Below are positions 34,956-50,834 of a stretch of 64,000 bases of DNA, piece by piece. Each line of letters starts with the position of its first letter. The stretch's first letter is position 1. A program made the translations under genes and the position numbers. A model generated the notes under the pieces. That model was not told the origin of the DNA, searched no databases, and worked only from the letters and a program-made list of their open reading frames with translations. Origin of the DNA: Pseudomonas sp. LRP2-20 (GTDB lineage: Bacteria; Pseudomonadota; Gammaproteobacteria; Pseudomonadales; Pseudomonadaceae). Where the stretch lies: NCBI RefSeq assembly GCF_024349685.1, contig NZ_AP025944.1:1990001-2054000 (forward strand), read 5' to 3'.

Positions 34956-35376
34956 GCTGGTCGCCGCGAGCGACGCCTGGTGCACCTTTGCCCGCGACCT
35001 GACGCGGCGGGCGATGCTGCCCTATTACCGCGAGTTCGACCTGTTATGGATCGAAGAAGCATTCGACCAGGCCTGGGGCTGGCGCGAGCAGTGGCTGGTG
35101 ATGGAAGGTGAGGTCGTGCTGGGTTTCTGCAGCCTCAGCCAGGACCGGCAGGCATTGTTCATTCGCGAGTTGCACCTGGTGCCGGAGCAGCGTGGGCGAG
35201 GGGTGGGCAGCCAGGTGCTGGAGACCCTGGCCGAATGGGCGGCGCAGCGGCGCCTGCCGCTGTTGAGGTTGATGGTGTTCAAGAGCAACCCGGCGCGGCA
35301 GCTGTACCGGCGCCATGGGTTTGTCGAGATGGGGGAGGATGACTGCTTTGTGAGGATGCAACGGGCTATCGGTTGA
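34945..35376 (+). CDS. GNAT-family N-acetyltransferase
   Basis: A 143-residue protein with the GNAT fold. The acetyl-CoA loop is LVPEQRGRGVGSQVLETLAEWA (Q/RxxGxG/A pattern), followed by LMVFKSNPARQLYRRHGFVE, the typical beta5-alpha4 end. Substrate is unknown. It overlaps the DUF488 gene by 11 bases and is followed by a REP pair. Confidence 0.87.
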   Translation: MPVELVAASDAWCTFARDLTRRAMLPYYREFDLLWIEEAFDQAWGWREQWLVMEGEVVLGFCSLSQDRQALFIRELHLVPEQRGRGVGSQVLETLAEWAAQRRLPLLRLMVFKSNPARQLYRRHGFVEMGEDDCFVRMQRAIG

Positions 35377-35377
35377 C

Positions 35378-35484
35378 CTGTGCCGGCCTCTCGCGGGTAA
35401 ACCCGCTCCCACAGGAACATCACAGCATTCAAGTCAGTGGTAAATCTGTGGGAGCGGGTTTACCCGCGAAGAGGCCGGTGCAGT
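35378..35484. repeat. Inverted REP pair
   Basis: Two facing copies with a TTTACCCGCG/CGCGGGTAAA core variant (about 35381-35416 and 35447-35483). They lie between the convergent GNAT gene and the end of the alginate-like operon and probably stabilise its 3' end. Confidence 0.85.
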
Positions 35485-35500
35485 CACAGCAGATGGTGGA

Positions 35501-36955
35501 TCATTGCTGCCTCACCCTCACAGTCTCACCCTGGCGCACAGTGGCTTCCAGCAACTGCCCCTGCAATGGCAGCAAGTCGCCGATCAACAGGTTCTGCAAC
35601 AACGGCTTGCCATCGAAGCTGTTGCCCCCCAGCAGCACATCCCGCACACCCTCCACCCGCACCAGTGCCTTGCCGACCTGGCCCAGGCGGTTGCCGCTGA
35701 GCACCAGCGGCCCGGCCAGTGGCGTGGCATTGCGCAGGCTGATGGCATATTCCGCTGTGTTGCCGATACGGTTGTCGAGCAGCGCCACGGCGCCCACCTC
35801 GCTGGCATCCACCGCGCTACCCTGGCTGCTGGCCAGCAAGTTGTCGTCGATCACCAGCGGCGCCGCCGGTGTGGGTGCCAGGCTGCGCAGCTGGATGCCA
35901 TTGCCGCGGCTGTCACCGATGCGGTTGCCGGCCAGCAGCACCGCGCCCTGTTGCTCGCTGACTTCGATGGCGGCCTTGGTTGCGCCAAGGATCAGGTTGC
36001 CTTCGACCAGGGCGCGGGTCTGGCCACGCAGGCGCACGCCGCTGTTGTTGTCGATGCCGCGCAGCTGGTTGCCCAGCAGTTTGACCTGGCTGTTCTGCAC
36101 ATCGATGGCGTATTGCTGCGACTGCTCGAACTGGCTGCCGGTGATGGTCGCCTGACTGTGCTGCAGCTCCACCGCGCTGGACATCTCGCTGAACTGGCTG
36201 TCGCGGATGATCACCGTAGCCGGGCGCGTGCTGGCCGCCTGCTGGGTGCTCAACGCCGTGGTCAGGCCCCGGGACAGGTTGGCGTTGTAGCCCAGGCGCT
36301 TGAGCGTCGAGCCGATCACCTGGGTGTGGCTGCCGGCCCAGGCCACCACGAACGGCCGCCAGGCACGGTCGGTGCTGCCCGGTCGGTCGCCGGCCATGCT
36401 CTGCAGGCTGGACTGGTTCAGCCCGAGCCAGCCCTGGTTGATCAGCGCCGTGCCGGAGAGGCTCGACAGGTACAGGCTGGTGCCTTCGAGCAGCAACCCG
36501 GCGTCGCTGCCGATCATCAACGGGTAGCTGAGCAGGTAGCCATCCTTGTAGCGCTTGAGGATGCGTGGGTCGTTCAGCGCGTCGTGCAACTGCGCCAGGG
36601 TGATGCTGCCGTCGCGCAGCATCACCACCTGCGGGTGGTGGGCCTGGTAACCGGCGATGGCGCGGAACAGGCCGTTGTTGACGAACGGCTCGAACGGCCA
36701 GCTGCCGGCCTGGGACGAGAACATTGGTTGCAGGCTGACGCTGGCGCGCCCGGCCGGGCGTTGCCGTTCGGCTTGCTGGAACGCCACGGCCTGGCGCACC
36801 TTCAGGCGCAACTGGTCGGCCTGCAGCTGGCGTTGCTCCCGGGGCAGGGTGTCCACGGTCTGGTTGACTGGCAGCGTTTGGCTGGCTGCCTGGGCGGTGC
36901 CTGCCAGGCACAGGGCGGCCAGGCAGGTGAGGGAAAAGCGGGCGAGGGCAGCCAT
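35501..36955 (-). CDS. algG: AlgG-like beta-helix protein with degenerate epimerase motif
   Basis: This 484-residue exported protein resembles AlgG, the periplasmic mannuronan C5-epimerase. It has a signal peptide (1-23, ending GTAQA) and a right-handed beta-helix from about 240 to 450 with repeated N/D-x-I/L-x-G turns. Known AlgG proteins carry the catalytic motif DPHDRS, with the His as base. Here the aligned position (after YAI) reads DVQNSQ at residues 285-290 (36086-36103), so the His is lost. It is also shorter than the usual about 540. It probably serves as a periplasmic scaffold for polymer export without epimerase activity; another chemistry is possible. It is the last gene of the operon, 3 bases after the algL-like gene, instead of following algE. 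Confidence 0.8.
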   Translation of the reverse strand: MAALARFSLTCLAALCLAGTAQAASQTLPVNQTVDTLPREQRQLQADQLRLKVRQAVAFQQAERQRPAGRASVSLQPMFSSQAGSWPFEPFVNNGLFRAIAGYQAHHPQVVMLRDGSITLAQLHDALNDPRILKRYKDGYLLSYPLMIGSDAGLLLEGTSLYLSSLSGTALINQGWLGLNQSSLQSMAGDRPGSTDRAWRPFVVAWAGSHTQVIGSTLKRLGYNANLSRGLTTALSTQQAASTRPATVIIRDSQFSEMSSAVELQHSQATITGSQFEQSQQYAIDVQNSQVKLLGNQLRGIDNNSGVRLRGQTRALVEGNLILGATKAAIEVSEQQGAVLLAGNRIGDSRGNGIQLRSLAPTPAAPLVIDDNLLASSQGSAVDASEVGAVALLDNRIGNTAEYAISLRNATPLAGPLVLSGNRLGQVGKALVRVEGVRDVLLGGNSFDGKPLLQNLLIGDLLPLQGQLLEATVRQGETVRVRQQ

Positions 36956-36958
36956 GGG

Positions 36959-38188
36959 TCAGCTCCTTGATCCGGGCAGTGGGGGGTAGAACGCTTTGAT
37001 CGGGCCGCCGAGCTGGCTGTAGTTGTCCACCTCGCCGTCTTCGCTGTCGTACAGCTGGCGGGCCAGGGCATGTCCGGGGTTGCGCTGCAGGAACGGGATC
37101 AGCCAGGCCATCTTGTACGGTGCCACATCCGCCTGGGACTGGCCCTTGAGTTCGGGCAGGTCGCCTGGGGCGAGCACCGTGCGGGCGGCGAAGTTGGCCA
37201 GCAGGTCGAGGGTCTGCTGGTCTTCGCGGCTCCACGGCAGGCCGTTGGCGCGCGCCGACTCGGCCAGCAGCACCAGCGGCACCAGGGCGTACTGGCTGTA
37301 GTTGGCCGCCAGCTTGCTGCGCGCCACTTCCAGCGGCAGGTAGGCATAGTTGCCATTGTTGGCGCGCACGGCCTGGGCCAGGCCACGGCGCAGGTTGCCG
37401 TCGGCCCACTGGATGAAGTCGTCGCGGCCGACCAGCATGCCGGTGGCGGCCACGGCCCAGGCCGCCCAGTAGTCGTGGTTGTTGAAGTACACACCGCTGG
37501 TGCTGCGGCGTGGGTCGTATTCCTGGATCACCAGCTCGCCCAGGCGGGTGAACCAGCGGCGCTGTGCCTCGCTCAACTGCAGCTTGCCGTCACTGGCCGA
37601 CTGGGTCAGCAGCACGGCACCGGCCATGGCCGCCAGCGCCCATTTGCGCGCGGCCATGCCGGTGCCGCTGGCATCCGGGTTGAGCAGGGCGCCGGCTTCG
37701 GCCCAGTGTTGCAGCCACTGGTCCTGGCAGGCCAGGGCCATGTTGGCCTGCTGGGGTTTCTTGGCGCCCTGGAAGCGTTTGCTGGCGTAGATCAGGCCGC
37801 CAACGAACGCTTTGACCTGCTTGCCGATGCGTTCGCTGTCGGCATCGGGGCTGCTGCGCAGGGTCGACTTGCTGGCGTCGCGCTGGTCGTACTTGCTTTC
37901 CAGGTGCAGGCTGCCGGTGTAGGGCGCTGGCGGTTCCTTGCTGCAGACCAGGGTGCGGTAGTCGGCGATCATGGCTGACTGTGGAGTGCTGTGGGGGGGC
38001 CAGATGGATTGCGCTGCCTGAGATTGGGAGCTCAACAGGAACAGGGTGAGCAGGATTGGCGCCGCTCTGCGGCCCTTCGCGGGCAAGCCCGCTCCCACAC
38101 CGACCGCGTCAGCTGTGGGGAACTCTGTGGCAGCGGGCATGCCCGCGAAGGGCCGCAAAGCGGCCCCAATCAGCGGTATCACATGCAT
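36959..38188 (-). CDS. algL: AlgL-like alginate lyase with REP-expanded signal peptide
   Basis: AlgL degrades alginate that strays into the periplasm and is part of the export complex. Key residues match the polysaccharide lyase family 5 pattern: SKYD with a lysine, FNNHDYWAAW with the catalytic His, and an Arg seven residues before a Tyr in ARSKLAANYSQYAL. ATG 38188 lies eight bases after GGAG and overlaps the algX stop by 10 bases. The resulting 409 residues exceed the usual about 370. The excess is residues 8-43, translated from an in-frame inverted REP pair (38060-38167). The hydrophobic core PILLTLFLLSS and SQA cleavage site follow. A GTG start at residue 31 would give a short normal signal peptide and is an alternative. 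Confidence 0.82.
   Translation of the reverse strand: MHVIPLIGAALRPFAGMPAATEFPTADAVGVGAGLPAKGRRAAPILLTLFLLSSQSQAAQSIWPPHSTPQSAMIADYRTLVCSKEPPAPYTGSLHLESKYDQRDASKSTLRSSPDADSERIGKQVKAFVGGLIYASKRFQGAKKPQQANMALACQDQWLQHWAEAGALLNPDASGTGMAARKWALAAMAGAVLLTQSASDGKLQLSEAQRRWFTRLGELVIQEYDPRRSTSGVYFNNHDYWAAWAVAATGMLVGRDDFIQWADGNLRRGLAQAVRANNGNYAYLPLEVARSKLAANYSQYALVPLVLLAESARANGLPWSREDQQTLDLLANFAARTVLAPGDLPELKGQSQADVAPYKMAWLIPFLQRNPGHALARQLYDSEDGEVDNYSQLGGPIKAFYPPLPGSRS
38059..38167. repeat. Inverted REP pair inside the algL-like coding sequence
   Basis: Facing REP copies at about 38059-38100 and 38125-38167 lie within the 5' end of the algL-like frame. About 108 bases, a multiple of three, so the frame stays open through both. 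REP elements normally lie outside genes. Confidence 0.85.
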
Positions 38189-39609
38189 AGCCTGGTCTCC
38201 ACATCGGTCGCCGCAGTCCCGGCCTTGGTCGGCTCCATGAACACCGACAGCAGGTTGGCCCCGGCAAATTCCGGTGCCTTGCTCAGCTCCAGGTAATACT
38301 GCCCACCCGTCACCGCCGCCTCGCGGCGGAACCACACCTTGTCCCGCGCACCGTTGTCGTAATAGACGATGATGTAGAAGTCCTTGACGTTCTTGTCGCT
38401 CAGGCGGATGTCGAGAAACCCCTTCGACAGCGCCTGGCGGCCACTGCCGGCATTGCTCAGCAGCTCGATGCGCTCGCCCACCTTCAACGCCGGCCGTTGC
38501 AGCTTCGCGCCGAGCACCTCCTTGTTTGCCGCACAGCCACCCTGTACCGCCGGCACCAGCTGGCGGTACATCAACGGCGAGTCGAGCCGGTAGTTGGCCG
38601 GCAGCTCCCAGACGATCAGCTTGGGCGGCGCCTTGGCTTTGTAGTCGCTGGACAGCAGGTATTCCAGCAACGAACCCTCTTCACCCACCCCGGGCAAGGC
38701 GTAGTTGAGGATGTCGACGTTCAGGTACTGTTTCAGGTAGCCGTCGAAATTGAACTGTTTGCTCTCGTCTTCACGGGCTGCGGCGTTACTGTCGCCGACC
38801 AGGATCACCTGTGGGTCCGGCGCCTCGTCGAACAGGGCGTCGGCGCCTGACGCCAGCGGAATGGTCTGGTAGCCGCGTACGTACTGGAAACCGTAGTTGT
38901 TGCCGCAGATGCTGCTCATCGCCAGGTTCAGGGTGCCGTCCTTGGGCACCATCACGCCCGGTTCGGTGCGGTATTCCTTCTTGGTCAGCCCGGCATAGAA
39001 CGGTTGGCGGCGGATTTCCTCGGCCATCAGCCTGGCGGTGGCCTCGGCGCCGGAAGGCGTCCAGTGGTGGTCGCGGCGGAAGAAGTACTCGCCCTTCGGC
39101 GGCTGCTGCACTAGCTGCATCATCGGCGCCACCAGCGCGCCGGCCTGGCGCAACTGGCCGAGGTAGGCGGCGAGGTTGTTGCTGGCGCGGGCATAGTCGA
39201 AGCCATGCAACTGGTCGGCGAACAGCTTGTCGCGGTGCATCAGCCCGCGAGTCGGCTGGATCGCCATGGCCACATGAATGCCCTGGCGCTCGAACGCCTG
39301 CATCAGGCGGGCGAACTCTGGGCGCATCGGCGCGGGGATGCCGAAGTCGTTGGTCAGGTCGACCGCCGAGCGGAACAACCAGCGGTCCTTGCCAGGCACG
39401 ATCTCGCGCATCAGTTTCATGCGCCCTTCGGCATAGCGTTGCGGGTCGCTCAAGGCCGGGCAAACCATGCACTGCAGGTTCTCGCAACCCGGCCCGCCCA
39501 CTTGGGCAGGCTGGGCAGGCTGGGCAGGCTGGGCGGGCTGGGCGGCCTGGCCCGGCAGGCTGAGCAAGGCCAGGGCAGCGCTCAGGCCAAAAGGTACAAG
39601 GGTCTTCAT
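38179..39609 (-). CDS. algX: AlgX-like alginate O-acetyltransferase
   Basis: AlgX is a periplasmic SGNH-like O-acetyltransferase that binds alginate through a C-terminal carbohydrate-binding module. The 476-residue protein has a signal peptide (1-22), the Asp-x-His pair in RRDHHWTPSGAEA (D180, H182) and the serine in VILVGDSNAA (S274). Other AlgX proteins have GTSN here; GDSN keeps the serine. A QPA repeat (residues 24-36) follows the signal peptide and is encoded by 9-base tandem repeats (about 39502-39550). Cysteines at 42, 47, 50 and near the C-terminus fit disulfides. ATG 39609 has AAGGA upstream. In the canonical operon algX follows algG; here it precedes algL-G. Confidence 0.88.
   Translation of the reverse strand: MKTLVPFGLSAALALLSLPGQAAQPAQPAQPAQPAQVGGPGCENLQCMVCPALSDPQRYAEGRMKLMREIVPGKDRWLFRSAVDLTNDFGIPAPMRPEFARLMQAFERQGIHVAMAIQPTRGLMHRDKLFADQLHGFDYARASNNLAAYLGQLRQAGALVAPMMQLVQQPPKGEYFFRRDHHWTPSGAEATARLMAEEIRRQPFYAGLTKKEYRTEPGVMVPKDGTLNLAMSSICGNNYGFQYVRGYQTIPLASGADALFDEAPDPQVILVGDSNAAAREDESKQFNFDGYLKQYLNVDILNYALPGVGEEGSLLEYLLSSDYKAKAPPKLIVWELPANYRLDSPLMYRQLVPAVQGGCAANKEVLGAKLQRPALKVGERIELLSNAGSGRQALSKGFLDIRLSDKNVKDFYIIVYYDNGARDKVWFRREAAVTGGQYYLELSKAPEFAGANLLSVFMEPTKAGTAATDVETRLCM
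39502..39550. repeat. 9-base tandem repeat in the algX-like gene
   Basis: About five units of the form CTGGGCAGG occur head to tail and encode the Gln-Pro-Ala repeats just after the signal peptide. Unit length is a multiple of three, so changes in copy number would only alter linker length. Confidence 0.8.
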
Positions 39610-39636
39610 GTGCCATTCATCCTTGCAGGGCAATCA

Positions 39637-40266
39637 TCACTCGGTCGGGTCGATGCTGTTGGCCAGGGTCATGCTGCGGTTGCCGGGCAGCAGCACGTAG
39701 CTGTACGAGCGGCCCTTCTTGAGAAACTGCTCGTCGAAGCTGGCGACCTTGGTGTCCTGCTGGTAGGCGGCGAAGTCGATCTTGATCTCGTTGACCATGC
39801 GCGTGCCGGTTTCACCGTTGCCAAGCGCTTGGATCACCTCGTGCTTGCCATCGGAGGTCTTCAGTGCGGCCTGGTTGGCGGTCAGGTTGTAGAAGGCGAT
39901 CTGCGCCTTCTTTGGCTCGTTGACATACTTGTCGCTGATCAGCTTCAACTGCTTGCCGTCGTAGACCACGGTGCTGGCGGCATTGGCCTTGAGCTGCGGC
40001 TCGATCGACTTGCCGCCGACGGCGATCTTGTGCGGGCCAGCAGGGGTGAAGCGGTAGCCGCTGAGCTGGCCGGCGGCGACCCGCTGTGGGTTGATCTTGC
40101 CGCTGAGGCTGACGTCGATGTTGCTGTCGGACAGGTTCAGCACGCGGACGAATGCCGAGTTGGCCGGCGCCACGGCATCGTACAGGTCGGCGTTGCCTTC
40201 GGCGGCCAAGGCCGCATGGCTGGCAGCGGCGAGGGCGATGGCGGTGAACAGTGGGGTGAGTTTCAT
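39637..40266 (-). CDS. algF: AlgF-like alginate acetylation protein
   Basis: AlgF is a small periplasmic adaptor required for alginate O-acetylation with AlgI, AlgJ and AlgX. The 209-residue protein has a signal peptide (MKLTPLFTAIALAAASHAALA) and begins EGNADLYDAVAPANSAFVRVLNLS as in the family. Two beta-rich domains follow. ATG 40266 has AAGGAGAG five bases upstream. It lies 27 bases before the algX-like gene. Confidence 0.9.
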   Translation of the reverse strand: MKLTPLFTAIALAAASHAALAAEGNADLYDAVAPANSAFVRVLNLSDSNIDVSLSGKINPQRVAAGQLSGYRFTPAGPHKIAVGGKSIEPQLKANAASTVVYDGKQLKLISDKYVNEPKKAQIAFYNLTANQAALKTSDGKHEVIQALGNGETGTRMVNEIKIDFAAYQQDTKVASFDEQFLKKGRSYSYVLLPGNRSMTLANSIDPTE

Positions 40267-40284
40267 CAGGCTCTCCTTGAATCG

Positions 40285-41379
40285 TCAGAAATGCTGGGGC
40301 GCAGCGCTGCGGCTGAGTGAGCCGGGGCGGTGGGCGAGCAGGGTGCGCAGGGGGAACTCCCAGACCACGGTGTTGATCTGTGGGTTGGCCAGCTGGTCGC
40401 TGGCTAGGAACTGGTTCATCGCCTCGAACGGGCCGCGGGCTTCCACGGCGATGCTCAGCAGGTCGCGGTTGAGCGCCTCCTTGAGGAAGCCGATGAAGTT
40501 CCAGTCGTCGATCTTGCTGTAACTGGTGCCGACCAGCAGCAGGCTCTGGTCTTGCTCGGCGAACAGGTCGTCGGCGCCTTGCTCGGCCTTGAGGGTTTCG
40601 TACAGGGTGATCGGATTGGGGCCGAACTGCGGCGCCAGGCGTGAATGGTCGAACTGGATGTAGTTCATCAGGTCGCCCTTGACGCTCTTCTCACCGGCCT
40701 TGTGTGACACGTACACCTGGTCACCCAGCAGTTGCGGGCGCTGGCGCGCCAGCTCGTAGGCCGACAGCCGTGCGCCTTCCGGGCTCCAGTGGGTGTCGGA
40801 CTTGAGGAACAGCTGCGGGCCGTCGAGGTTGGCCAGAAACGCCTGGCGCAGCGGCACCACATCCAGCTGGCGGTCTTGCAGCGCGCCGACAAAACGGTCA
40901 TAGAGGCTGGTCACTCGCGGGTCGAACGCGTGCGCGGCGTGCGCTGCGTACACATCCAGTTTCATCGGCAGTGGCAGGATCACCAGCTGCTTGCCACGCT
41001 CGGCCAACTGCGCACGCACTTTGGCGATCTGCTCCAGCTGGCTCGTCAGGTTGGCGTCGAGGTCATTTGGAACGCGGTATTCCTGGTTGGTGTAGAGCCA
41101 GCCGTCCTTGCCCAGCACCACGCCCTTGGTGCCCTCGCCGAACAGGTGGAACTGGGCGTCGGCCCACAGTTGCACCGACGGCTCACGCAGGAAGAAGCGC
41201 TTGTCGTAGGCCTGCTCGAACTTGCGCAGCAGCTTGCCGTCGACGAACAGGTTCCAGGTATCGGTCGACGTGCGGGCAAAACTGAATACCGGTGGCAGCG
41301 AATAGACGAACATCGCCGCCAGCACCACCACGAACAGAATGCCATTGGCCTTGCTGGCCGAATTCATCACCGGGTACAT
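40285..41379 (-). CDS. algJ: AlgJ-like alginate O-acetyltransferase
   Basis: AlgJ is a membrane-anchored periplasmic acetylesterase/acetyltransferase with an SGNH-like fold. The 364-residue protein has a single N-terminal membrane helix (about 13-30). The catalytic set is present as D195 and H197 in SDTHWSPEGA and S286 in LVGTSYS. ATG 41379 has AGGAGAG upstream; it follows algI by 9 bases. Intact residues mean acetylation is expected. Confidence 0.92.
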   Translation of the reverse strand: MYPVMNSASKANGILFVVVLAAMFVYSLPPVFSFARTSTDTWNLFVDGKLLRKFEQAYDKRFFLREPSVQLWADAQFHLFGEGTKGVVLGKDGWLYTNQEYRVPNDLDANLTSQLEQIAKVRAQLAERGKQLVILPLPMKLDVYAAHAAHAFDPRVTSLYDRFVGALQDRQLDVVPLRQAFLANLDGPQLFLKSDTHWSPEGARLSAYELARQRPQLLGDQVYVSHKAGEKSVKGDLMNYIQFDHSRLAPQFGPNPITLYETLKAEQGADDLFAEQDQSLLLVGTSYSKIDDWNFIGFLKEALNRDLLSIAVEARGPFEAMNQFLASDQLANPQINTVVWEFPLRTLLAHRPGSLSRSAAPQHF

Positions 41380-41388
41380 GGCACTCTC

Positions 41389-42816
41389 CTAGAACTGGAA
41401 ATACAGGAAGGGTGAAAACGAGTTTGCCGCCAGGCTGCTCAGCGCCAGCAGGAAGCCGCCCCACAGCAGCACGCTGTTCAGCGCGCTGACATGGCGCATG
41501 AAATAGCCTTCCTTGTTGCCGGCGTAGAAGCGCAGGTTGTTGATCCCGGCCAGTACCAGCCAGGCCAGCGCCACCAGGGCAAAGGCCATGGCCATCTTCG
41601 AGGCGCCGAGCACGTACAGCTCCAGCGAGCCGAAACCGTTGAAGCCGAACAGCGCCTGGTAGATGTCGATGCTGTGGCGCAGGTCCATGGTGAAGAACAG
41701 CGGCATGCTCAGCACGATCAGCAGGCCCGTGCGCAGGTTGCGGCTCAGGCGGTAGGGCGCACCGACCTTGGTCGCCAGGTTGAACTTGCGTTCGATGACC
41801 ATGCCGACCCCGAAGAACAGCCCCCAGCAGATGAAGGCGAAGCTTGCGCCGTGCCACAGGCCTGACAGCAGCATGGTCCAGACCAGCGCCGGCAGGGCGC
41901 CGGCCACGCGCTTGCGCACCAGGGGCATGTACACGTAGTCGCGCAGGAAATGCGCCAAGGTCATGTGCCAGCGTGCCCAGAACTCGGTGATGCTCTGTGC
42001 CACATAGGGCTGGTTGAAATTCTCCGGGAAGCGGAAGCCCATCATCAGCGCCAGGCCCAGGGCCATGTGGCTGTAGCCGGCGAAGTCGAAGTACAGCTGC
42101 AGGGTCGAGATCACCAGGCCGAACCAGGCATCGCTGAACTGCAACGTGCCTTCACTGACGAACAGCTGGTTGATCGGCGCCAGGCGGTCGGCGATCAGCA
42201 CCTTCATGATGAAACCGAGCATGAAGCGGCACACACCCAGCGAGAACAGCTCCAGCGAGTGGGTGCGTTCGCGCAGCTGCGGCGCCAGCTGGCTGTAGCG
42301 CAGGATCGGCCCGGCCACCAGGTGCGGGAACAGCGCGACAAAGGCGGCGAAGTCGATGAAGTTGCGCGTCGGCGTGGCGTCCTTGCGGTAGATGTCGACG
42401 ATGTAGCTCAGGGCATGGAACACGTAGAACGAAATGCCCAGCGGCAGGAAGATGTTCTCCAGCGTCCAGGTATTGATGCCCAGTGGCGCCAGCAGCATGG
42501 CCAGCACCTCGGCGCCGAAGTTGGCGTACTTGAAGTAGCCCAGGGTCGACAGGTTGCCGGCCACGCCGATCCACAGCAGGCGCAGGGCCATGGGTTTGTC
42601 GCCGGCATCCAGGCGTGCCTTGATCCGCAGGCCGAACCAGTAGTTCCAGTAGGTGATGCCGACGAACAGCAGCAGGAAGTCTGGCCGCCACCAGGCATAG
42701 AAGATGTAGCTGGCGGCCACGATCACCGTGGAGCGCCACTGCGCCTTGGCCAGGAAGTACACGGCCAGGAACAGCGGCAGGTAGAGGAACAGGAACACAT
42801 TGGAGGCGAAGATCAT
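41389..42816 (-). CDS. algI: AlgI-like MBOAT acyltransferase
   Basis: AlgI is a membrane-bound O-acyltransferase that moves acetyl groups across the inner membrane for alginate acetylation. The 475-residue protein has about eleven membrane segments and the MBOAT histidines in FWARWHMTLAHFLRDYVY and LSGLWHGASFAFICWG. It lacks the long polar linker found before the last helices in P. aeruginosa AlgI (about 520 residues), but the C-terminus SPFLYFQF is retained. It lies 14 bases after algE, whereas in canonical operons algG, algX and algL intervene. Confidence 0.92.
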   Translation of the reverse strand: MIFASNVFLFLYLPLFLAVYFLAKAQWRSTVIVAASYIFYAWWRPDFLLLFVGITYWNYWFGLRIKARLDAGDKPMALRLLWIGVAGNLSTLGYFKYANFGAEVLAMLLAPLGINTWTLENIFLPLGISFYVFHALSYIVDIYRKDATPTRNFIDFAAFVALFPHLVAGPILRYSQLAPQLRERTHSLELFSLGVCRFMLGFIMKVLIADRLAPINQLFVSEGTLQFSDAWFGLVISTLQLYFDFAGYSHMALGLALMMGFRFPENFNQPYVAQSITEFWARWHMTLAHFLRDYVYMPLVRKRVAGALPALVWTMLLSGLWHGASFAFICWGLFFGVGMVIERKFNLATKVGAPYRLSRNLRTGLLIVLSMPLFFTMDLRHSIDIYQALFGFNGFGSLELYVLGASKMAMAFALVALAWLVLAGINNLRFYAGNKEGYFMRHVSALNSVLLWGGFLLALSSLAANSFSPFLYFQF

Positions 42817-42830
42817 GGCACGGCCCGTCC

Positions 42831-44285
42831 TTAGTAACTGATCACCACGCCGACGCTCAGCTGGTAGTCATCGCCTGTTGCCAATGCACTGCCGGCATTG
42901 AGGTAACTGGCGCTGACCAGCGCGTTGACGTCCAGGTGCTTGCCATCGATAGCCACCGGAAACATCTTCCAGTAGTAGTTGAGGTCGATCATCTGCCCGA
43001 CATTGCGCCCGTTGCCGTTGCTGCCCTGGTTGATGGCACGGTTGCGCTGCGAACGCTGGTCGCCATTCATGCGGATCGGCAGGGTGCCGTCGGCATCGCG
43101 CAGGTCCAGCTGGGTCACCCGCAGGTCCAGCGCGCTGCGCGGGGTGGGGCGGGTCTCCACGGCAAAGCCGTAGTAGCTCAGGTTGCGCAGGTCGAGGGCG
43201 ACGAACGAACTGGTCAGGCGGGTGCTGTAGGAGCCGGTGCGGGTGATGCGGTCGGACTGGATGGCGTTCAGGCGGAAGCCATCGTTCTCGTCGCCGGGCT
43301 TGTCGGTCAGGCCGCCACGCAGCGCCAGGCGCGGGGTCCACGCCAGGCTGTCGAAGCGCTTGCCGACTTCACCCAGCACCGCCCAGCCCTTGCTGCTGTG
43401 GCCGGTGGTGGTGATGCCGTTGCCGTCGGTGTTGTCCATCTTGCCATCCAGCGCCGCCAGTTCCAGGTGGTAGTCGCTGAGCACCGGGTAGGCGAGGTTG
43501 TCACCCTTGAAGAACAGCCCGTAGCGCATGCCCTTGAAGTCGTAGCGGTCGTCGGCGTCGTGGCCGCTGTGGTCGTTCTCGTGCATCAGGCGCACACCGA
43601 CCTGGTTGTTCGGGCTCCAGCGGTAGGCGTACTGGCCCATCAGGTAGGTGGTGCGCTCCTCGCTGTCGGCCAGGCGGTTGACGTCGGTGTTGTAGTTGTG
43701 GAACTTCTGGCCGACGGCGAAGAACGCCTCGCTGAAGGTGTCCTGGTAGTTGAAACGCAGCGACTCGAGGCTGTCGTCCCACCAGATGCCGTAGTCGTCA
43801 TAGAAGCGCTGGCGGCCGAACGAGGCGGAGAAGCGCGGGTCGTCGCCGATCAGGTTGCGCTTGACGTACAGCTCGCGCAGCTCGGCATACCAGCCTTCGG
43901 GCTGTTCGCGTTGGTTGCTGTTGCTGGCTTCGTTGGTCAGGTTGCTCGACTGGCTGGAGTCGTAGTTCAGCCACAGGCGGCCGTAGACCATCCACTTGGC
44001 CCAGCGCTTTTCCGGCGAGTACCAGGCGAACGACGGTTCGTAGCGCAGGCTGTAGAACATCTCGCGGTCGCTGCCGACCTGGGAGTCCTCAGGGCCGTAG
44101 CCGGTCTGCACGGTGAGCTTGTTGAACACTTCCGAGGTGATCACTGGCTCGCTGCCATCCACGGCGGCGACGCGTACCGGTTCGTTGCTGTCAGCCTCGG
44201 GGCCGGTGATTTCTTCCGCGGCGAAGGCCGCCGGCAAGGGCGCCAGGGCCAGCAGGGCGCCGAACAGGGGGTGGTGCGCTTTCAC
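42831..44285 (-). CDS. algE: AlgE-like outer-membrane alginate porin
   Basis: AlgE is the outer-membrane beta-barrel through which alginate leaves the cell. The 484-residue protein has a signal peptide (1-22, ending AAFA) and a barrel sequence with alternating strands and many Arg and aromatic residues (WAKWMVYGRLWLNY, GRQRFYDDYGIWWDD), ending in VGVVISY. The start is GTG 44285, overlapping the algK stop as GTGA. It belongs to the alginate-export family; residues lining an anion-selective pore could not be aligned by eye. Confidence 0.9.
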   Translation of the reverse strand: MKAHHPLFGALLALAPLPAAFAAEEITGPEADSNEPVRVAAVDGSEPVITSEVFNKLTVQTGYGPEDSQVGSDREMFYSLRYEPSFAWYSPEKRWAKWMVYGRLWLNYDSSQSSNLTNEASNSNQREQPEGWYAELRELYVKRNLIGDDPRFSASFGRQRFYDDYGIWWDDSLESLRFNYQDTFSEAFFAVGQKFHNYNTDVNRLADSEERTTYLMGQYAYRWSPNNQVGVRLMHENDHSGHDADDRYDFKGMRYGLFFKGDNLAYPVLSDYHLELAALDGKMDNTDGNGITTTGHSSKGWAVLGEVGKRFDSLAWTPRLALRGGLTDKPGDENDGFRLNAIQSDRITRTGSYSTRLTSSFVALDLRNLSYYGFAVETRPTPRSALDLRVTQLDLRDADGTLPIRMNGDQRSQRNRAINQGSNGNGRNVGQMIDLNYYWKMFPVAIDGKHLDVNALVSASYLNAGSALATGDDYQLSVGVVISY

Positions 44286-45724
44286 AGGGTGGCCTCCTTG
44301 AACAGCCCGTTGCGAGCGGCCAGGGCACGCTCGATGTCATCCTTTGGCAGTGTCTTTTCCAGGCGCTTGATCAGGCTGCGCGCACTGCGTTCACCCAGGT
44401 CGAGGGCGACGCGGGCATAGGTGTAGGCCTTGACCGGGTCGTGGCACAGGGCACGACCGTAGGCGTGCAGGGTGGCCATGCGGTACCAGGCGGCGGTGTT
44501 GCCCTTGTCGGCTTCGGCCTGGAACAGCGCCAGGGCCTTTTCCTGGTCGGGCTGGTCCTCGACGCCCTTGCTGTAGTACTCGGCCAGCAGCAGGCCGGCG
44601 CCGGGGTAGCCGCTGGCACCCAGCTCCTCGATCAGTGCGCGGGCCTTGTCCGGGTCGAGGGTCAGCCAGTTGTTGACCATGTAGAACTGCGCCTGCAAGG
44701 CCTTGGCCCGGGTTGGCTCGCGCTCGCGTACCTGGTCGATCAGCGCCTGGGTTTCCTCGGCGTTGTGCTCGGTCGGGTTGGAGATCATGTAGTTGGCCTT
44801 GGACACCATGGCCGGCACGAAGCCGCGGGCTACGGCCACATCGCGCCAGCGCTGGACGCGGGCGGTAGCCAGGTTCAGCGCCTGGTCCTGGGCTTTTTCG
44901 CGGGCCAGTTGCGCGGGCGTTGGCGGCAGCTTGTCGGCGCCCGGTGCGCTGGCCTGGCGTTCGTAGCGGTCGGCGTCCAGTTCGGCGCGCTGCACGCTGG
45001 TGATGCTGTCGAGCAGCGCGGCGACGCGGTGGATGATCTCCACCGGCAACTGCTCACGCTCAGGCTCAAGCTGGTCGGCGAAGGGCGGGAACAGGCGGTC
45101 CTGCTGCTCGCCGAGGAAGGCGTAGTAGCGGTCCAGGGCGCGCACGTCCACGCGCACCGCCTGGCGATACCAGCGCTCGGCGCCGGCGCGGTCGCCCTGG
45201 CGCTCGGCGAGCACGGCGTGGTACAGCTCGGGGCGGCAGTTGAGCAGGCAAGCCTGCTCGTAAAGGGCCAGCAGCTGGGCGGTGTCGACCAGCTCCGGGT
45301 AGGTCAGGAACACTTCCAGTGTGGTGCTGGTGTTACGCGGGTCGAGGTTGGCCGGGTAGCGCGTCAGAGCCTGTGCCATCCACGGCCGTTGCGCCTCGCG
45401 CAGGCTCGGCGTGCGGTCGATCAGGCGGGCCAGCGATGCCAGTGCCGGGACCAGGCCATGGCCGTCGGCAAAGGCCTTCTGGTACAGCGCCACCACTTCC
45501 GCGCGGCTGGCGCCTTCGCGCCCGGCCAGCACATCGCCAAGCAGCAGGGTGCTGGCCAGGTCGCCACGGGCAGCCAGCTCGCGCAGGTCGCTGGTGACCT
45601 CGGCCGACGGGTCCTTGTACAGCGCATAGCGGATCTGTTCCAGGCTCTGCCCGGCACTGGCCGTGCTGGCGCAGGCCAGCACCAGGCCGGCCAGCAGCAG
45701 GCGGGGGGGCATGTTCGCGGTCAT
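44282..45724 (-). CDS. algK: AlgK-like TPR/Sel1 periplasmic protein
   Basis: AlgK is a Sel1/TPR scaffold that links the outer-membrane porin to the periplasmic complex. The 480-residue protein is helical, with Sel1-like repeats clearest at the C-terminus (ASGYPGAGLLLAEYYSKGVED, NTAAWYRMATLHAYG). Known AlgK is a lipoprotein; here the leader ends LVLACASTASAG, so the cysteine has a poor lipobox (Leu at -2) and signal peptidase I cleavage after ASA is equally possible. ATG 45724 follows alg44 by 22 bases. Confidence 0.85.
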   Translation of the reverse strand: MTANMPPRLLLAGLVLACASTASAGQSLEQIRYALYKDPSAEVTSDLRELAARGDLASTLLLGDVLAGREGASRAEVVALYQKAFADGHGLVPALASLARLIDRTPSLREAQRPWMAQALTRYPANLDPRNTSTTLEVFLTYPELVDTAQLLALYEQACLLNCRPELYHAVLAERQGDRAGAERWYRQAVRVDVRALDRYYAFLGEQQDRLFPPFADQLEPEREQLPVEIIHRVAALLDSITSVQRAELDADRYERQASAPGADKLPPTPAQLAREKAQDQALNLATARVQRWRDVAVARGFVPAMVSKANYMISNPTEHNAEETQALIDQVREREPTRAKALQAQFYMVNNWLTLDPDKARALIEELGASGYPGAGLLLAEYYSKGVEDQPDQEKALALFQAEADKGNTAAWYRMATLHAYGRALCHDPVKAYTYARVALDLGERSARSLIKRLEKTLPKDDIERALAARNGLFKEATL

Positions 45725-45746
45725 GGCGTCATCGTCCTCGGCGCGC

Positions 45747-46910
45747 TTAGCGCGCTGCGCCGAATGGCAGGCCCAGGAACAGGTCGACCGCCACCGCTTT
45801 CTGGTAGGCCGCGGCCGGTAGCGGGCTGTCGGGCTGGATGGTCAGTGCCAGGTTGCGATTGAGCTCATCCACGCGCGCGTCGACCACCTTGCCGCTGTAG
45901 TGCTGGTCGAGGCCGAACACCTGCATGTCCACCGACTTCACCCGGTCGACATCGGCGAGCTTGTCGAACGGCACGTTGGCGCGCACGAACAGGCCCTGGT
46001 CCTTGGGCAGCAGGTGCATCAGCGGGGCTTCCTTGTAGCCATAGCCATCCAGGCGCTGGCTCGGGTAGTAGACCTGGCAGTCGCACGGGCTGTTGATCAC
46101 CGTCTCGATGGTGGCGCGGCCGAGCAGGGCCTGCAGGTCGCCCGGCGACAGGTCGGCGACCGCCTTCATGTCGGCCGGGCTGGTGAAGCTGGTGGCCAGC
46201 TGCGTGGAGATGCTGGCCAGCGGCTGGCCAGCCTGCACTTCGGTGGCGCCGGCGGGCAGCAGGTACTTCACATAGCCGTTGTCGGGCATGCTGATGACCT
46301 GGGCGTTGGTCGCCACCTGGGCCTGCAGCGCCGGGATGCGGAAGAACAGCAGGTAGCCCTTGTAGCCGACGAAGGCCAGCGCGGCGATGCCGGCGGCGGT
46401 GTACAGCAAGGTGCCGGTCAAGGCCTTGAGGCGGGCGCCTGGGGTGCGGGCGCTGGCGTACTTGTGCTTGCGCTCCTTTATGTAGTTCTCGCGCTGCATG
46501 ACATTGAACAGGCCGTTGATGTCGGCGATCTCGCCGGACATGTAGGCGCTGATCAGGTAGCGCAGGATGTCGCGCTTCTGTGCATCGAGCTCGACGAACT
46601 GTGCGCCCACTTCGTTGCCGCGCTGGGAGACGATGCGGATCTTGCTGTCGATGTTCAGGTCGACCTGGTTCAGGCGCAGGCGGATCGAGGCGTCGTACAG
46701 CGTGCCGACTTTCAGCGGCGCGTCATGGATCAGGCCCAGGCCACCCAGGGAAATGTCCTGCAGGGCCACTTCGAACGGCGCCTGGCCGGCACTGGCCAGG
46801 CGTACCCGTGCGTTCATCCGGGTGCGCACGTACTGGCGCTCGTCGACCGCCTCATGGACGATGTTGGCCGCTGTCTTGCCCGGGGCCGCGGGAATGTTCG
46901 TGGTACTCAT
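45747..46910 (-). CDS. alg44: Alg44-like PilZ c-di-GMP receptor
   Basis: Alg44 is the inner-membrane protein that binds c-di-GMP and activates the polymerase Alg8. The 387-residue protein has an N-terminal PilZ domain with RMNAR (R31-R35) and DISLGG (D52, S54, G57), the RxxxR and DxSxxG ligand motifs, plus an Arg in VSQRGNEVG. One membrane helix lies at about 170-190. A periplasmic HlyD-like domain follows with the conserved SPCDCQV stretch near 275. ATG 46910 lies 16 bases after alg8. The polymer is thus expected to be c-di-GMP controlled. Confidence 0.92.
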   Translation of the reverse strand: MSTTNIPAAPGKTAANIVHEAVDERQYVRTRMNARVRLASAGQAPFEVALQDISLGGLGLIHDAPLKVGTLYDASIRLRLNQVDLNIDSKIRIVSQRGNEVGAQFVELDAQKRDILRYLISAYMSGEIADINGLFNVMQRENYIKERKHKYASARTPGARLKALTGTLLYTAAGIAALAFVGYKGYLLFFRIPALQAQVATNAQVISMPDNGYVKYLLPAGATEVQAGQPLASISTQLATSFTSPADMKAVADLSPGDLQALLGRATIETVINSPCDCQVYYPSQRLDGYGYKEAPLMHLLPKDQGLFVRANVPFDKLADVDRVKSVDMQVFGLDQHYSGKVVDARVDELNRNLALTIQPDSPLPAAAYQKAVAVDLFLGLPFGAAR

Positions 46911-46926
46911 ATGCAGGCGCCTTTCC

Positions 46927-48456
46927 TTAACGTTGCGAGAGTTCTAAGAGAACGGTGATGACCCCGAAGAAGATCGCGATCGACGAGCACAGCATCGCCT
47001 TCGAGGACCAGCGGTTGAGGCTGGCGTCGAAGTCGACGCTGCCAGTGGCCAGGGTGGTCTTCTGCCGCGTCCAGCTTTGCTGGTCCATGTGGAACATCGC
47101 GTAGACCTTCATCAGCGAACCGACGATCTGGTTGTAATAAAGAACGAAGGGGTACATCGGGCTGACCGGGTGGCCGGCGAAGACGAACAGCACGGTCACC
47201 AGGCTGCGCGAGATTAGCACCCAGAACAGGTACACCAGCAGGTACTGGATACCGAACACCAGGCCGGCCACCACCGAGGCAGTCAGGCCCATCAGGCAGG
47301 TCCACATCGACACGCGCTGGTCGAGCAGCACGTACAGGGTGAACAACCCCAGCCGGGCGCGGCCGAGCAGGGCGGTGGCGCGGAAGTTCTGCCGCAGCGA
47401 GTTGCCGTACCAGCGGAACATCAGCTGGCGGGTGGCGATCCAGAAGCTGTCGCTGGGCGGGTGCTCGACGGTCAGGGTGTGGCTGTCGGGCACATAGAAG
47501 GTATTCCAGCCAGCGCGCATCAGGCTCAGCCAGCTCGACTTGTCGTCACCGGTGAGGAACTGGAAGCGGCCCAGGCGCCAGTGTTCGAGGAAGTCGGCTT
47601 CGACGTCGCGGATGAAATCGGGGTCGGTCATCACTTCGGCGCGGAAGAACGACAGCCGCCCGGTCAGGGTCAGCACCCGGTGCGACAGGGCCATCGAGCA
47701 CATGTTGATGTGGCGCTGGACGAAGCGCATCGAGTGCCACTGGCGCATCCAGCGGCTGCCTTCGACTTCGCAGAATTCGTTGGTGGTCAGGCCGCCCACG
47801 TCCGGCAGCACGGCAAACAGCTTGACCGCACGCTCGACGCAGCCGGGCAGCATCATGGTGTCGCCGTCGACCACGCCGACCACCGCGTCACTCAGCGGCA
47901 TCTGCCGCGACAGCGCGCGAAAGGCATGGGCCAGGCCGTCGCGCTTGCCCGTGCCTCGGGCGCGGACGATCACCAGCTTGATGTCGTCGCGGTCCTTGAC
48001 CTCGTTGCGCATGATGTCCTTGATGAAGGTCTCGTCGCCTTTCTCCACGATCGAGGCGATCACCGTGCACGGCACCTTCAGCCGTTGCACTTCCTGGAAT
48101 ACCGACTGGTAGACCTTGAACGTGGTCATGGTGGGGATGCGGAAGCTGGTGACCACCATGAACATGTGCGAGGGCAGTGCTGCATCGCCCAGGCGTTCGA
48201 CCTGCCGACGCAGGCGTGGGAACTTCCAGTGCAGGAAGTACATGCCGCGCAGGTAGTGGACGATGGCGTTGCCATAGCGCCACATGCCCAGTGTGCCGAT
48301 GATGAAGATGAACAGGTGGTGGTTCGGGTCCAGGTACTGCGGTGCGACCATCTCCGACGCCAGCGCGATCAGCCCGGCCAGGCACGCCCAGCCGAAGAAG
48401 CTGGCGCCTGCGCGCAGGTAGCCGGGTGCCACGAAGGGCGGTTGCTGTCGATCCAT
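46927..48456 (-). CDS. alg8: Alg8-like polymannuronate synthase (GT2)
   Basis: Alg8 is the inner-membrane glycosyltransferase that polymerises GDP-mannuronate. The 509-residue protein has membrane segments at about 18-60, a GT2 catalytic domain with GTGKRDGLA, VVDGDT, TTNEFCEVEGS and LTGDDKSSW, the LMFRWYGN motif, and four or five C-terminal helices. I start at ATG 48456 (MDRQQPPF), with AGGAG ten bases upstream; a GTG further upstream is weaker. It resembles Alg8 across its length, including QRHINMCSMALS and FVLYYNQIVGSL, but its N- and C-terminal parts look clearly divergent from P. aeruginosa Alg8. Confidence 0.92.
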   Translation of the reverse strand: MDRQQPPFVAPGYLRAGASFFGWACLAGLIALASEMVAPQYLDPNHHLFIFIIGTLGMWRYGNAIVHYLRGMYFLHWKFPRLRRQVERLGDAALPSHMFMVVTSFRIPTMTTFKVYQSVFQEVQRLKVPCTVIASIVEKGDETFIKDIMRNEVKDRDDIKLVIVRARGTGKRDGLAHAFRALSRQMPLSDAVVGVVDGDTMMLPGCVERAVKLFAVLPDVGGLTTNEFCEVEGSRWMRQWHSMRFVQRHINMCSMALSHRVLTLTGRLSFFRAEVMTDPDFIRDVEADFLEHWRLGRFQFLTGDDKSSWLSLMRAGWNTFYVPDSHTLTVEHPPSDSFWIATRQLMFRWYGNSLRQNFRATALLGRARLGLFTLYVLLDQRVSMWTCLMGLTASVVAGLVFGIQYLLVYLFWVLISRSLVTVLFVFAGHPVSPMYPFVLYYNQIVGSLMKVYAMFHMDQQSWTRQKTTLATGSVDFDASLNRWSSKAMLCSSIAIFFGVITVLLELSQR

Positions 48457-48548
48457 GTCGGCTTGACTCCTGTTTTTTGCGGTGCCCGCGCGCCACGCCA
48501 CCCAGGCGTCAGCCTGCGGTGGGTGGTGCGCGGTGGCTGCCGGGTCGG
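48457..48548. other. 92-base spacer between algD and alg8
   Basis: GC-rich spacer with a possible hairpin formed by GCGCGCCACGCCACC and GGTGGTGCGCGGTGGC (48487-48538). No gene. It is the longest gap in the operon and may tune algD against the rest. Confidence 0.4.
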
Positions 48549-49856
48549 TTACCAGCAGATGCCTTGGCTGCGGCTATCGCTCAGGCCGGGCATGAAGCCG
48601 ACCAGGTCGATCACCTGCTTGCCGTGGTCGGCTTGCAGGGCGCTGGCGAAGCGCGGGTCGTTGTTGCCCAGGACGATCACTTCGGCGTCATCGATCACCT
48701 GCTGCAGGTCGCTGTGCAGCAGCGACGAAACATGCGGGATCCTGGCTTCGATGTAGTCCTTGTTGGCCCCGTGCACGCGGGCGTATTCGACGTTCTCGTC
48801 GAATATGTGCAGCTGGTAACCCTTGCCGATGAGGCGCTCGGCCAGTTCCACCAGCGGGCTTTCCCGCAGGTCGTCGGTGCCGGCCTTGAAGGCCAGGCCG
48901 AGCAGGGCGATCTTGCGTTTGTCCTGGCGCTCGATGAGGTCGAAGGCGTTCTGCACCTGCGAGGCGTTGCTGGCCATCAGCGAGTCGAGCAGCGGCGCCT
49001 TCACATCCAGGCTGGCGGCGCGGTAGGTGAGGGCCCGCACGTCCTTGGGCAGGCACGAGCCGCCAAAGGCGAAGCCCGGGCGCAGGTAGTAGCGCGACAG
49101 GTTGAGCTTGTGGTCCTGGCAGACCACATCCATGACTTCGCGGCCATCGACACCGGCAGCCTTGGCAATGTTGCCGATCTCGTTGGCGAAGGTGACCTTG
49201 GTCGCGTGCCAGACGTTGCAGGTGTACTTGATCATCTCGGCAATTTCGATGGTCCTGCGGATCACCGGTGCGTCGAGCTCCTTGTACAGCGACTCGAGCA
49301 GGTCGCCCGACGCTTTGTCCAGCTCGCCGATCACGGTCATGGCCGGGAAGTCGTAGTCCTGGATCGCCGTGCTCTCGCGCAGGAACTCCGGGTTCACTGC
49401 CACGCCGAAGTCGACGCCGGCCTTCTTGCCCGAGCAGTCTTCGAGAATCGGGATCACCACATTCTTCACCGTGCCTGGCAGCACGGTGCTGCGCACCACC
49501 ACGGTGTGGCGGCTGCCCTTGTCGCGCAGGGCGGTGCCGATTTCCCGGCAGACCGCTTCCATGTACACCAGGTCCAGGTCGCCGTTCTTCTTGCTGGGGG
49601 TGCCGACGCACAGCAGCGACAGGTCGGTGGCGAGGATCGCCGCTTGCACGTCGGTGGTGCCGCTCAGCCGGCCCTTGCTGATGCCGTCCTGCAGCAACTG
49701 TTCCAGGCCCGGCTCGACAATCGGCGACTTGCCCTGGTTGATCAGTTCGATTTTCGCCGGGGAAATGTCCACCCCCAGCACGTGATGGCCGCGGGCCGAC
49801 AGGCAGCCCGCGCAGACCGCGCCAACATAGCCAAGTCCAAAGATACTGATGTTCAT
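48549..49856 (-). CDS. algD: GDP-mannose 6-dehydrogenase
   Basis: AlgD oxidises GDP-mannose to GDP-mannuronate, the committed step of alginate synthesis. The 435-residue protein has the NAD site IFGLGYVGAV at the N-terminus, the catalytic cysteine in FAFGGSCLPKDVRAL near residue 268, and a C-terminal domain ending QGICW, as in P. aeruginosa. It is the operon member that looks most like the canonical protein. ATG 49856 (MNISIFGLG). It is first in the operon and transcribed away from the XRE regulator gene. GDP-mannose must come from an algA or another PMI/GMP gene elsewhere. Confidence 0.96.
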   Translation of the reverse strand: MNISIFGLGYVGAVCAGCLSARGHHVLGVDISPAKIELINQGKSPIVEPGLEQLLQDGISKGRLSGTTDVQAAILATDLSLLCVGTPSKKNGDLDLVYMEAVCREIGTALRDKGSRHTVVVRSTVLPGTVKNVVIPILEDCSGKKAGVDFGVAVNPEFLRESTAIQDYDFPAMTVIGELDKASGDLLESLYKELDAPVIRRTIEIAEMIKYTCNVWHATKVTFANEIGNIAKAAGVDGREVMDVVCQDHKLNLSRYYLRPGFAFGGSCLPKDVRALTYRAASLDVKAPLLDSLMASNASQVQNAFDLIERQDKRKIALLGLAFKAGTDDLRESPLVELAERLIGKGYQLHIFDENVEYARVHGANKDYIEARIPHVSSLLHSDLQQVIDDAEVIVLGNNDPRFASALQADHGKQVIDLVGFMPGLSDSRSQGICW

Positions 49857-50015
49857 AGGTCCCTCTCCCTGGGGCACGGCAAAGCCGGCCGAGATACATC
49901 GTTCATGAAGTTGTCGAAATGGCAGACGCGCAGAATTAAGCCGCGCTCGGAAGTGGCGTTTCAGGCTGTTTCTTAGTGGTCTTTTTACAGCCTAATGTTG
50001 TTCTTATTTTTATTG

Positions 50016-50035
50016 CAAGCGTTGATATTCGCTTG
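50016..50035. promoter_or_regulatory. Inverted repeat upstream of algD
   Basis: CAAGCG and CGCTTG are separated by eight bases, about 160 bases upstream of the algD start, in the AT-rich part of the gap. Possible binding site of the divergent XRE regulator or another regulator. Confidence 0.35.
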
Positions 50036-50277
50036 TTTGAAAATAACTTATATTTTCTCTGTTAAAGTTTAAAAACCCTTATAAATCAATAAGTTAAAGT
50101 TGCTGTTAGTTGGGCGTCAAAAAAATGATTATCCTGTCGGTGGCGATAAAGTGGCGCCAATGGCATGGCGTTCTGCCAATTTTCCTGTGTTTTTTGTGGC
50201 TTGGATTGCACTGCGGGAGCCTATAAAACCCCAATAAATCGGGGCCCCGCCGGGTGCGCTAGTGGCGCAATACTGGC

Positions 50278-50306
50278 TTGCGACGCTGGCCGGTGATGGG
50301 CATAGT
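50278..50306 (+). promoter_or_regulatory. Candidate promoter of the xre gene
   Basis: TTGCGA and CATAGT, each four of six matches to the sigma-70 elements, are spaced by 17 bases. The predicted start would be near 50313, about 70 bases upstream of the xre ATG. Confidence 0.4.
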
Positions 50307-50324
50307 GACCACACAGTCTGCAAC

Positions 50325-50344
50325 TGCTTACAGGATTGTGAGCA
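50325..50344. promoter_or_regulatory. Candidate operator in the xre leader
   Basis: TGCTTACA-GGAT-TGTGAGCA is an inverted repeat with one mismatch, lying just downstream of the candidate xre promoter. Position fits autorepression by the encoded HTH protein. Confidence 0.4.
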
Positions 50345-50381
50345 GCACCCATGACGGCAAAGGAACAAGGAGAAACGTCAT

Positions 50382-50771: not shown

Positions 50772-50834
50772 GTCCGCCATGAAAAATTTTGTTAAGGTGG
50801 CGGGATCCAATCGCCCTGTTGACGAGGTGTCTGC

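Follow-up and report, generated by a model that had tools for sequence, protein, structure and literature searches.

A second alginate-type operon in Pseudomonas sp. LRP2-20 and its AlgG homologue without the DPHD motif

Is a block of alginate-type genes on one strand of the Pseudomonas sp. LRP2-20 chromosome an ordinary alginate operon that has been rearranged, or a second system with a polymer of its own? The window, meaning here the whole analysed stretch of 64,000 nucleotides (positions 1990001-2054000 of the 6.03-Mb one-contig genome, NZ_AP025944.1), carries the block on its minus strand from 49856 down to 35501, as 11 open reading frames (ORFs) in the order D-8-44-K-E-I-J-F-X-L-G, all of them open and just as the original prediction had read them; the claimed absence of algA also held, no algA ORF being seen in the ORF listing of the block and its neighbours. 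Very probably the block is a further exopolysaccharide operon in its own right, synthase-dependent and of alginate ancestry, and its genes point to gating by bis-(3'-5')-cyclic dimeric guanosine monophosphate (c-di-GMP), to an O-acetylated poly-mannuronate as product and to an AlgG that does not epimerise. Such loci are here called epm-type, after the epm cluster of Pseudomonas alkylphenolia with which the block is identified below.

Divergence from the canonical alginate operon

The suggestion that the genome be searched for a standard alginate locus was borne out by a complete canonical operon, D-8-44-K-E-G-X-L-I-J-F-A, at ~5.10 Mb, ~3 Mb from the block. In the block, by contrast, G-X-L-I-J-F-A does not follow E. 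Global identities to the canonical proteins of the same genome are 81% for AlgD, 54% for Alg8, 48% for AlgI, 35% for AlgJ, 34% for AlgX, 33% for AlgL, 30% for both Alg44 and AlgF, and 27% for each of AlgE, AlgG and AlgK. AlgD had been called nearly canonical and Alg8, Alg44, AlgI and AlgG divergent, both rightly, and AlgK and AlgE, not named at the time, match the divergence of AlgG. The likeness of AlgD alone would mislead; judged by identity the remaining genes are a distant paralogous set. The block shares with the canonical operon its structural-protein homologues, a PilZ copolymerase, an acetylation set and a periplasmic lyase, and differs from it in gene order, in having no algA, in identities of 27-54% outside AlgD, in an AlgG lacking the DPHD motif and in that no AlgU-type promoter was found for it in the window.

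Trees were built as quick LG+G4 searches of tblastn-aligned stretches, the canonical rows being the best 30 of 47 canonical-type Alg8 matches and mostly from the putida group. Alg8 (33 epm-type and 30 canonical rows) splits cleanly into the two systems with a Shimodaira-Hasegawa-like approximate likelihood ratio (SH-aLRT) support of 100, and Alg44, with the same numbers of rows, does so equally cleanly and with the same support, so that neither protein of the block falls within the canonical clade. The AlgD tree (29 epm-type and 30 canonical rows) speaks the other way, in that the systems are not separated with support (11/100): AlgD of the putida-group epm-type loci sits on a branch of its own, and the other epm-type AlgD proteins lie nearer the canonical ones.

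The gene order recurs, as D-(A)-8-44-K-E-I-J-F-X-L-G, in 32/32 mapped relative loci, which come from 32 of the 46 genomes other than our own (G133 left out), and the layout is therefore not due to chance. Seventeen of these loci have algD and no algA, in 11 an algA homologue follows algD and precedes alg8, showing that the gene is not foreign to the system, and four have neither (G118, G333, G148 and G378). In two of these four, G118 and G333, which have no canonical alg8 either, an algD-algA pair lies elsewhere in the genome, and in G148 and G378 a canonical algD adjoins the canonical alg8. Every one of the 32 mapped genomes thus has an AlgD at its disposal, within the cluster or outside it, which argues for a mannuronate monomer. 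Among 72 loci found in GTDB representatives by a scan for two peptide patterns, which is not exhaustive, the genes visible within a 10-kb flank keep this order in every locus with an intact algG (71/72), other genera included, although some loci reach only X, J or I owing to contig ends.

That the block is merely a rearranged ordinary operon, a redundant copy making standard alginate, would explain why there is a homologue for every alginate structural protein and why AlgD is so alike and its tree has no supported split. It sits badly with the identities of all the other proteins, with the separate Alg8 and Alg44 clades and with an order that is fixed in other genera too, and the NCBIfam models for AlgG and AlgK are failed by a wide margin: the AlgG of the block scores 45.3 bits on NF038177, whose cut-off is 700, and the canonical AlgG, the control run for these two models, passes with 1035.7. 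We consider this explanation quite improbable, and the notion of a rearranged standard operon is rejected on trees, identity and fixed order in favour of a parallel lineage with a gene order of its own. The idea of a second, alternative system beside the standard alginate locus accordingly stands, and the distinct polymer proposed with it is likely.

Two loci show departures in layout. L133 has an extra L after G, and L160, which like L164 belongs to Pseudomonas mangrovi TC11, reads J-F-X-L-G and then directly D-A-8-44-K, which resembles a second epm-type cluster in tandem, divided between contigs.

Catalytic sites and the AlgG homologue

Residues which we take to be the key ones in AlgD, Alg8, Alg44, AlgL, AlgX, AlgJ and AlgI were followed through alignments against the canonical proteins with 33 rows per protein, or 29 for AlgD. 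Cys268 of AlgD is kept in 29/29 rows, and in 33/33 rows each the DGD, GDDK and RW motifs of Alg8 are invariant and RxxxR and DxSxxG of Alg44 are kept, the combination of family 2 glycosyltransferase motifs and PilZ signature expected of a synthase-dependent, c-di-GMP-gated system. The same full count holds for K, N, H, R and Y of AlgL, which is thus of the AlgL type within polysaccharide lyase family 5 (PL5), and for D, H and S of both AlgX and AlgJ and His322 of AlgI, so that with AlgF in the set the MBOAT histidine and the SGNH triads of alginate-type O-acetylation are in place. With the key residues of lyase, transferases and synthase all in place, the change described next is specific to AlgG.

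The DPHD epimerase motif is found in 0/104 AlgG rows, and the window reads Y-A-I-D-V-Q-N. The Tyr of the site is kept in 101/104 rows and its first Asp in 104/104. A 170-residue fragment, L168, was left out of the 104, of which 89 are distinct because two genome collections overlap. Searched against the PDB at E<=0.01, the family profile finds only AlgG epimerases (4 sequences, best 1.8e-22), AlgG C5-epimerase structures such as 4NK6 and 4OZY being its sole matches, and yet the protein lacks DPHD and lies far below the NCBIfam AlgG cut-off. According to a passage in PMC4444821, proton abstraction in AlgG and in AlgE epimerases is probably the task of the DPHD histidine, Tyr314 coordinates a water and AlgG shields charge with an arginine. 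With DPHD and its catalytic histidine lost but the beta-helix and a part of the site retained, the homologue is most likely a non-epimerising scaffold. The same passage states that in mutants without AlgK, AlgX or AlgG alginate gives way to unsaturated oligomers, and this gives a reason why a non-catalytic AlgG could still be kept. We lean, with rather modest confidence, towards the view that throughout the lineage, from Pseudomonas to Shewanella, AlgG has ceased to be an epimerase and become a structural component of secretion machinery for mannuronan alone, the other catalytic sites being kept.

Several features of the same site weigh against so simple a picture. The DPHD base column holds a His in 8/104 rows, and the column taken for the charge-neutralising arginine holds Arg in 72/104 rows (24/33 in the smaller set); both weaken any strict claim that the enzyme is dead, though the alignment around the site is unsure at 27% identity. 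In addition Glu263, Arg308, Lys327 and Glu331 hardly vary within the clade, differ from the residues of canonical AlgG and could belong to another active site. The homologue may then be an epimerase or a lyase whose active site has been remodelled, with a mannuronate/guluronate chain of different pattern or another uronan as polymer; the retained beta-helix family, Tyr and first Asp also fit this. We hold it to be unlikely, given that the histidine base, as PMC4444821 has it for AlgG and AlgE epimerases, is not conserved at its column, that no row has DPHD and that the other enzymes of the set are unaltered. A literature search over top-ranked titles, abstract starts and term counts, with few subscription papers, brought up no report of a missing DPHD in this lineage, which is no proof of absence.

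Taking the non-epimerising scaffold as the preferred reading, a route to the polymer can be proposed. AlgD would convert GDP-mannose to GDP-mannuronate; as the operon has no algA, the GDP-mannose would come in trans, probably through AlgA of the canonical locus. Alg8 would polymerise GDP-mannuronate once c-di-GMP binds the PilZ domain of Alg44, and the chain would cross the periplasm via an AlgK-AlgX-AlgG assembly, be O-acetylated by AlgI, AlgJ, AlgF and AlgX and exit through AlgE, with AlgL presumably clearing misdirected chains. The predicted product is an acetylated poly-beta-D-mannuronate without guluronate, a matrix polymer under a control other than that of alginate. Should the AlgG homologue indeed be a pseudo-epimerase, the family would offer a natural test of the roles of AlgG besides epimerisation, with a lineage-wide separation of its scaffold role from catalysis, and could be a source of guluronate-free acetylated mannuronan.

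The epm cluster and the distribution of the system

In 2014 Lee et al. reportedly described, in their abstract, a cluster of 11 ORFs in one orientation that is needed for aerial structures and pellicles, for which they had preliminary evidence of a substituted polymannuronic acid and named homologues from Pseudomonas, Alcanivorax and Marinobacter. The 11 genes of the block recur, in the same order and at the same site between xre-gacA-uvrC and GNAT-DUF488, in P. alkylphenolica PSB00016, whose proteins are 73-90% identical to those of the block and which also carries one separate canonical-type alg8. A passage in PMC5890197, citing Lee et al. 2014, has it that the epm cluster of P. alkylphenolia makes an alginate-like exopolysaccharide. 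On the shared genes and site we identify the block, likewise eleven alginate-like genes in one orientation and apart from canonical alg, with epm; a point to hold against this is that the identity rests on the species, the gene count and the words alginate-like. The function of the cluster has been studied in P. alkylphenolia/alkylphenolica. The system is thus separate but already known, and the lineage-wide loss of the epimerase motif is its most testable point.

A second 2014 paper, by Lim et al., is said in its title to present P. alkylphenolia as a platform for poly-beta-D-mannuronates, and is not used here as evidence for the epm polymer. A methods passage in PMC4890793 names an alginate over-producer 'P. 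alkylphenolia E1 (pAlgG)', which makes the canonical locus a possible origin of that product. The block was also compared with Pap, the Pseudomonas acidic polysaccharide, which is likewise a predicted uronic-acid polymer of pseudomonads; as set out in PMC7716237, Pap is predicted to be of the Wzy type, with a lipid carrier and no c-di-GMP receptor, whereas the block is of the synthase type with PilZ, and Pap was rejected on this difference of pathway.

With the AlgG of the block as query some match was obtained in 361/398 sampled Pseudomonas genomes, and in 47 of the 398 (our own included) the homologue has at least 45% identity over most of the protein, at E 2.6e-111 or better. One further genome, G357, has broken AlgG pieces at 65-68% identity, and the remaining matches, canonical AlgG included, have E 9.3e-18 or worse and, among the matches listed, at most 33% identity. 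Canonical Alg8 was then used to search 48 genomes (the 47 with epm-type AlgG and G357), and an epm-type Alg8, at 54-58% to this query, is present in 47 of them. A canonical alg8 (at least 76%) is also present in 43 of these 47, and in the other four (G001, G394, G333 and G118) the epm type is the only Alg8-type synthase found. Homology-based surveys of genomes for alginate may merge two different systems, which often occur within one genome.

These counts bear on whether the block might be a relic, silent or in decay, left by an ancient operon. The broken AlgG pieces of G357, which has no epm-type alg8, and L168 of Pseudomonas sp. BBP2017, where only fragments of an epm-type algG are seen, are what such decay would look like. 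The 11 ORFs of the window are open, however, their key residues are invariant in the clade, the order is shared by every mapped relative and four genomes have no other such synthase, and we give the relic a very slim chance. G357 has, besides, two canonical-like alg8 genes.

The 72 loci of the GTDB scan are mostly titled Pseudomonas, among them P. alkylphenolica, P. mosselii, P. soli, P. donghuensis, P. otitidis, P. citronellolis and P. alcaligenes, with single loci titled Marinobacterium, Gilvimarinus, Marinobacter and Shewanella. Across 369 sampled Gammaproteobacteria the AlgG profile at E<=1e-20 matched no genome apart from that of the window, and taken with the loci of other genera this makes the system rare there rather than absent. 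In the record titled Pantoea sp. Cy-639 (L119) the cluster is of Pseudomonas type and the record is probably misnamed. Fourteen plasmid records, nine of them Rhizobium, contain an Alg8 homologue, and since all are below 60% identity there is no near plasmid source; the ten matches listed, nine from Rhizobium and one from Loktanella, are at ~42% identity and on large plasmids.

A third alginate-type locus, canonical-like (alg8 77%), lies beside the canonical and epm-type ones in two genomes (G060:C4, which is L223, and G381:C1:2079937). That of G060 reads D-8-44-K-E-G-X-L-A, with no I-J-F match between L and A, and that of G381 has alg8 and algD matches only.

Chromosomal site, regulation and component genes

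The flanking genes, named by eye from their translations, are as originally read, with DUF488 and GNAT, and also PitA, on one side and xre, gacA, uvrC and pgsA on the other. Putida-group relatives have the cluster at the same site, xre-gacA-uvrC upstream and GNAT-DUF488-PitA downstream as far as each stretch reaches; matches were missing there for DUF488 and PitA in L078, xre in L080, PitA in L081 and DUF488 in L122. None of these flank genes was found in 15 other mapped loci or in L124, L127, L143, L148 and L165-L167. G009, which has no epm-type AlgG, has GNAT and xre ~140 bp apart, an empty site in this one genome. The cluster looks accessory, and may come and go as a whole.

The PilZ motif suggests c-di-GMP control. 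For AlgU we take the promoter consensus to be GAACTT-N16/17-TCNNA, to which canonical algD has a perfect match at -469, and the 526 bp before algD of the block have none at up to one mismatch. AlgU control in the lineage may still occur, since a one-mismatch AlgU-like match of looser spacing is present in 4/25 algD upstream stretches of ~420 bp (24 relatives and the window), all four in relatives, and this counts against a control that differs from that of alginate throughout. An AT-rich upstream block containing AACTTTAA-like words is common to the putida-group relatives. Scans for sigma-70 promoters and terminators gave nothing clearly above shuffled sequence.

The features are collected in Table 1, with PDB searches made for 8/11 of the proteins (G, X, L, 44, J, D, I and E).

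Table 1. Features of the epm-type block in the window, with predicted roles and the matches on which they rest
Feature	Position	Strand	Evidence
algD upstream region	49857..50381	-	AT-rich block, conserved among relatives; AlgU-type promoter not found at <=1 mismatch
algD-like, GDP-mannose 6-dehydrogenase (GDP-mannuronate)	48549..49856	-	PDB 1MFZ AlgD E=9e-229; 81% to canonical AlgD
alg8-like, family 2 glycosyltransferase, polymerase	46927..48456	-	54% to canonical; motifs; separate clade
alg44-like, PilZ c-di-GMP receptor / copolymerase	45747..46910	-	PilZ E=1.1e-13; PDB Alg44 PilZ 4XRN E=5.1e-11
algK-like periplasmic repeat scaffold	44282..45724	-	NCBIfam AlgK 47.5 bits (cut-off 700); 27% to canonical
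algE-like outer-membrane exporter	42831..44285	-	Pfam Alginate_exp E=1.1e-11; PDB AlgE 4AFK E=4.8e-17
algI-like MBOAT O-acetyltransferase	41389..42816	-	MBOAT E=1.1e-27; His322 conserved
algJ-like SGNH acetyltransferase	40285..41379	-	PDB AlgJ 4O8V E=6.8e-38; D/H/S conserved
algF-like acetylation adaptor	39637..40266	-	Pfam AlgF E=5.6e-39
algX-like terminal acetyltransferase, C-terminal carbohydrate-binding module	38179..39609	-	PDB AlgX 4KNC E=1.1e-75; ALGX + CBM_26
algL-like PL5 lyase	36959..38140, start uncertain	-	Pfam Alginate_lyase E=2.3e-37
algG-like right-handed beta-helix protein without DPHD	35501..36955	-	family profile matches PDB AlgG epimerases

Family searches agree with alginate-type roles, Alg8 being recognised only as a family 2 glycosyltransferase, AlgI as an MBOAT protein and AlgG, in Pfam, only as a beta-helix; the algK-like protein has no Pfam match and only the weak NCBIfam one. 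Its N terminus has a Cys at a lipobox-like place in the window, absent in 3/4 relatives compared. AlgL fails all four alginate lyase NCBIfam models compared and passes NF001469 'polysaccharide lyase' (424 bits, cut-off 366), which the canonical AlgL fails, so that NCBI already has a separate lyase model that this protein fits. PHROGs gave a tail-spike match for AlgG (E=1.7e-7) and a family of unknown function for AlgK (E=1.3e-13), with no others, and Rfam had no match at gathering score within 35000-51000.

The start of algL is uncertain: the nearest ATG is at 38140, similarity to relatives begins at ~38065, and a sequence resembling repetitive extragenic palindromic (REP) elements lies in frame between. 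This belongs to a REP-like pair at ~38066-38165, between algX and algL, which obscures the start, and other REP-like inverted repeats, of the GGGAGCGGGTTTACCCGCG type, lie at 35385-35480, downstream of algG.

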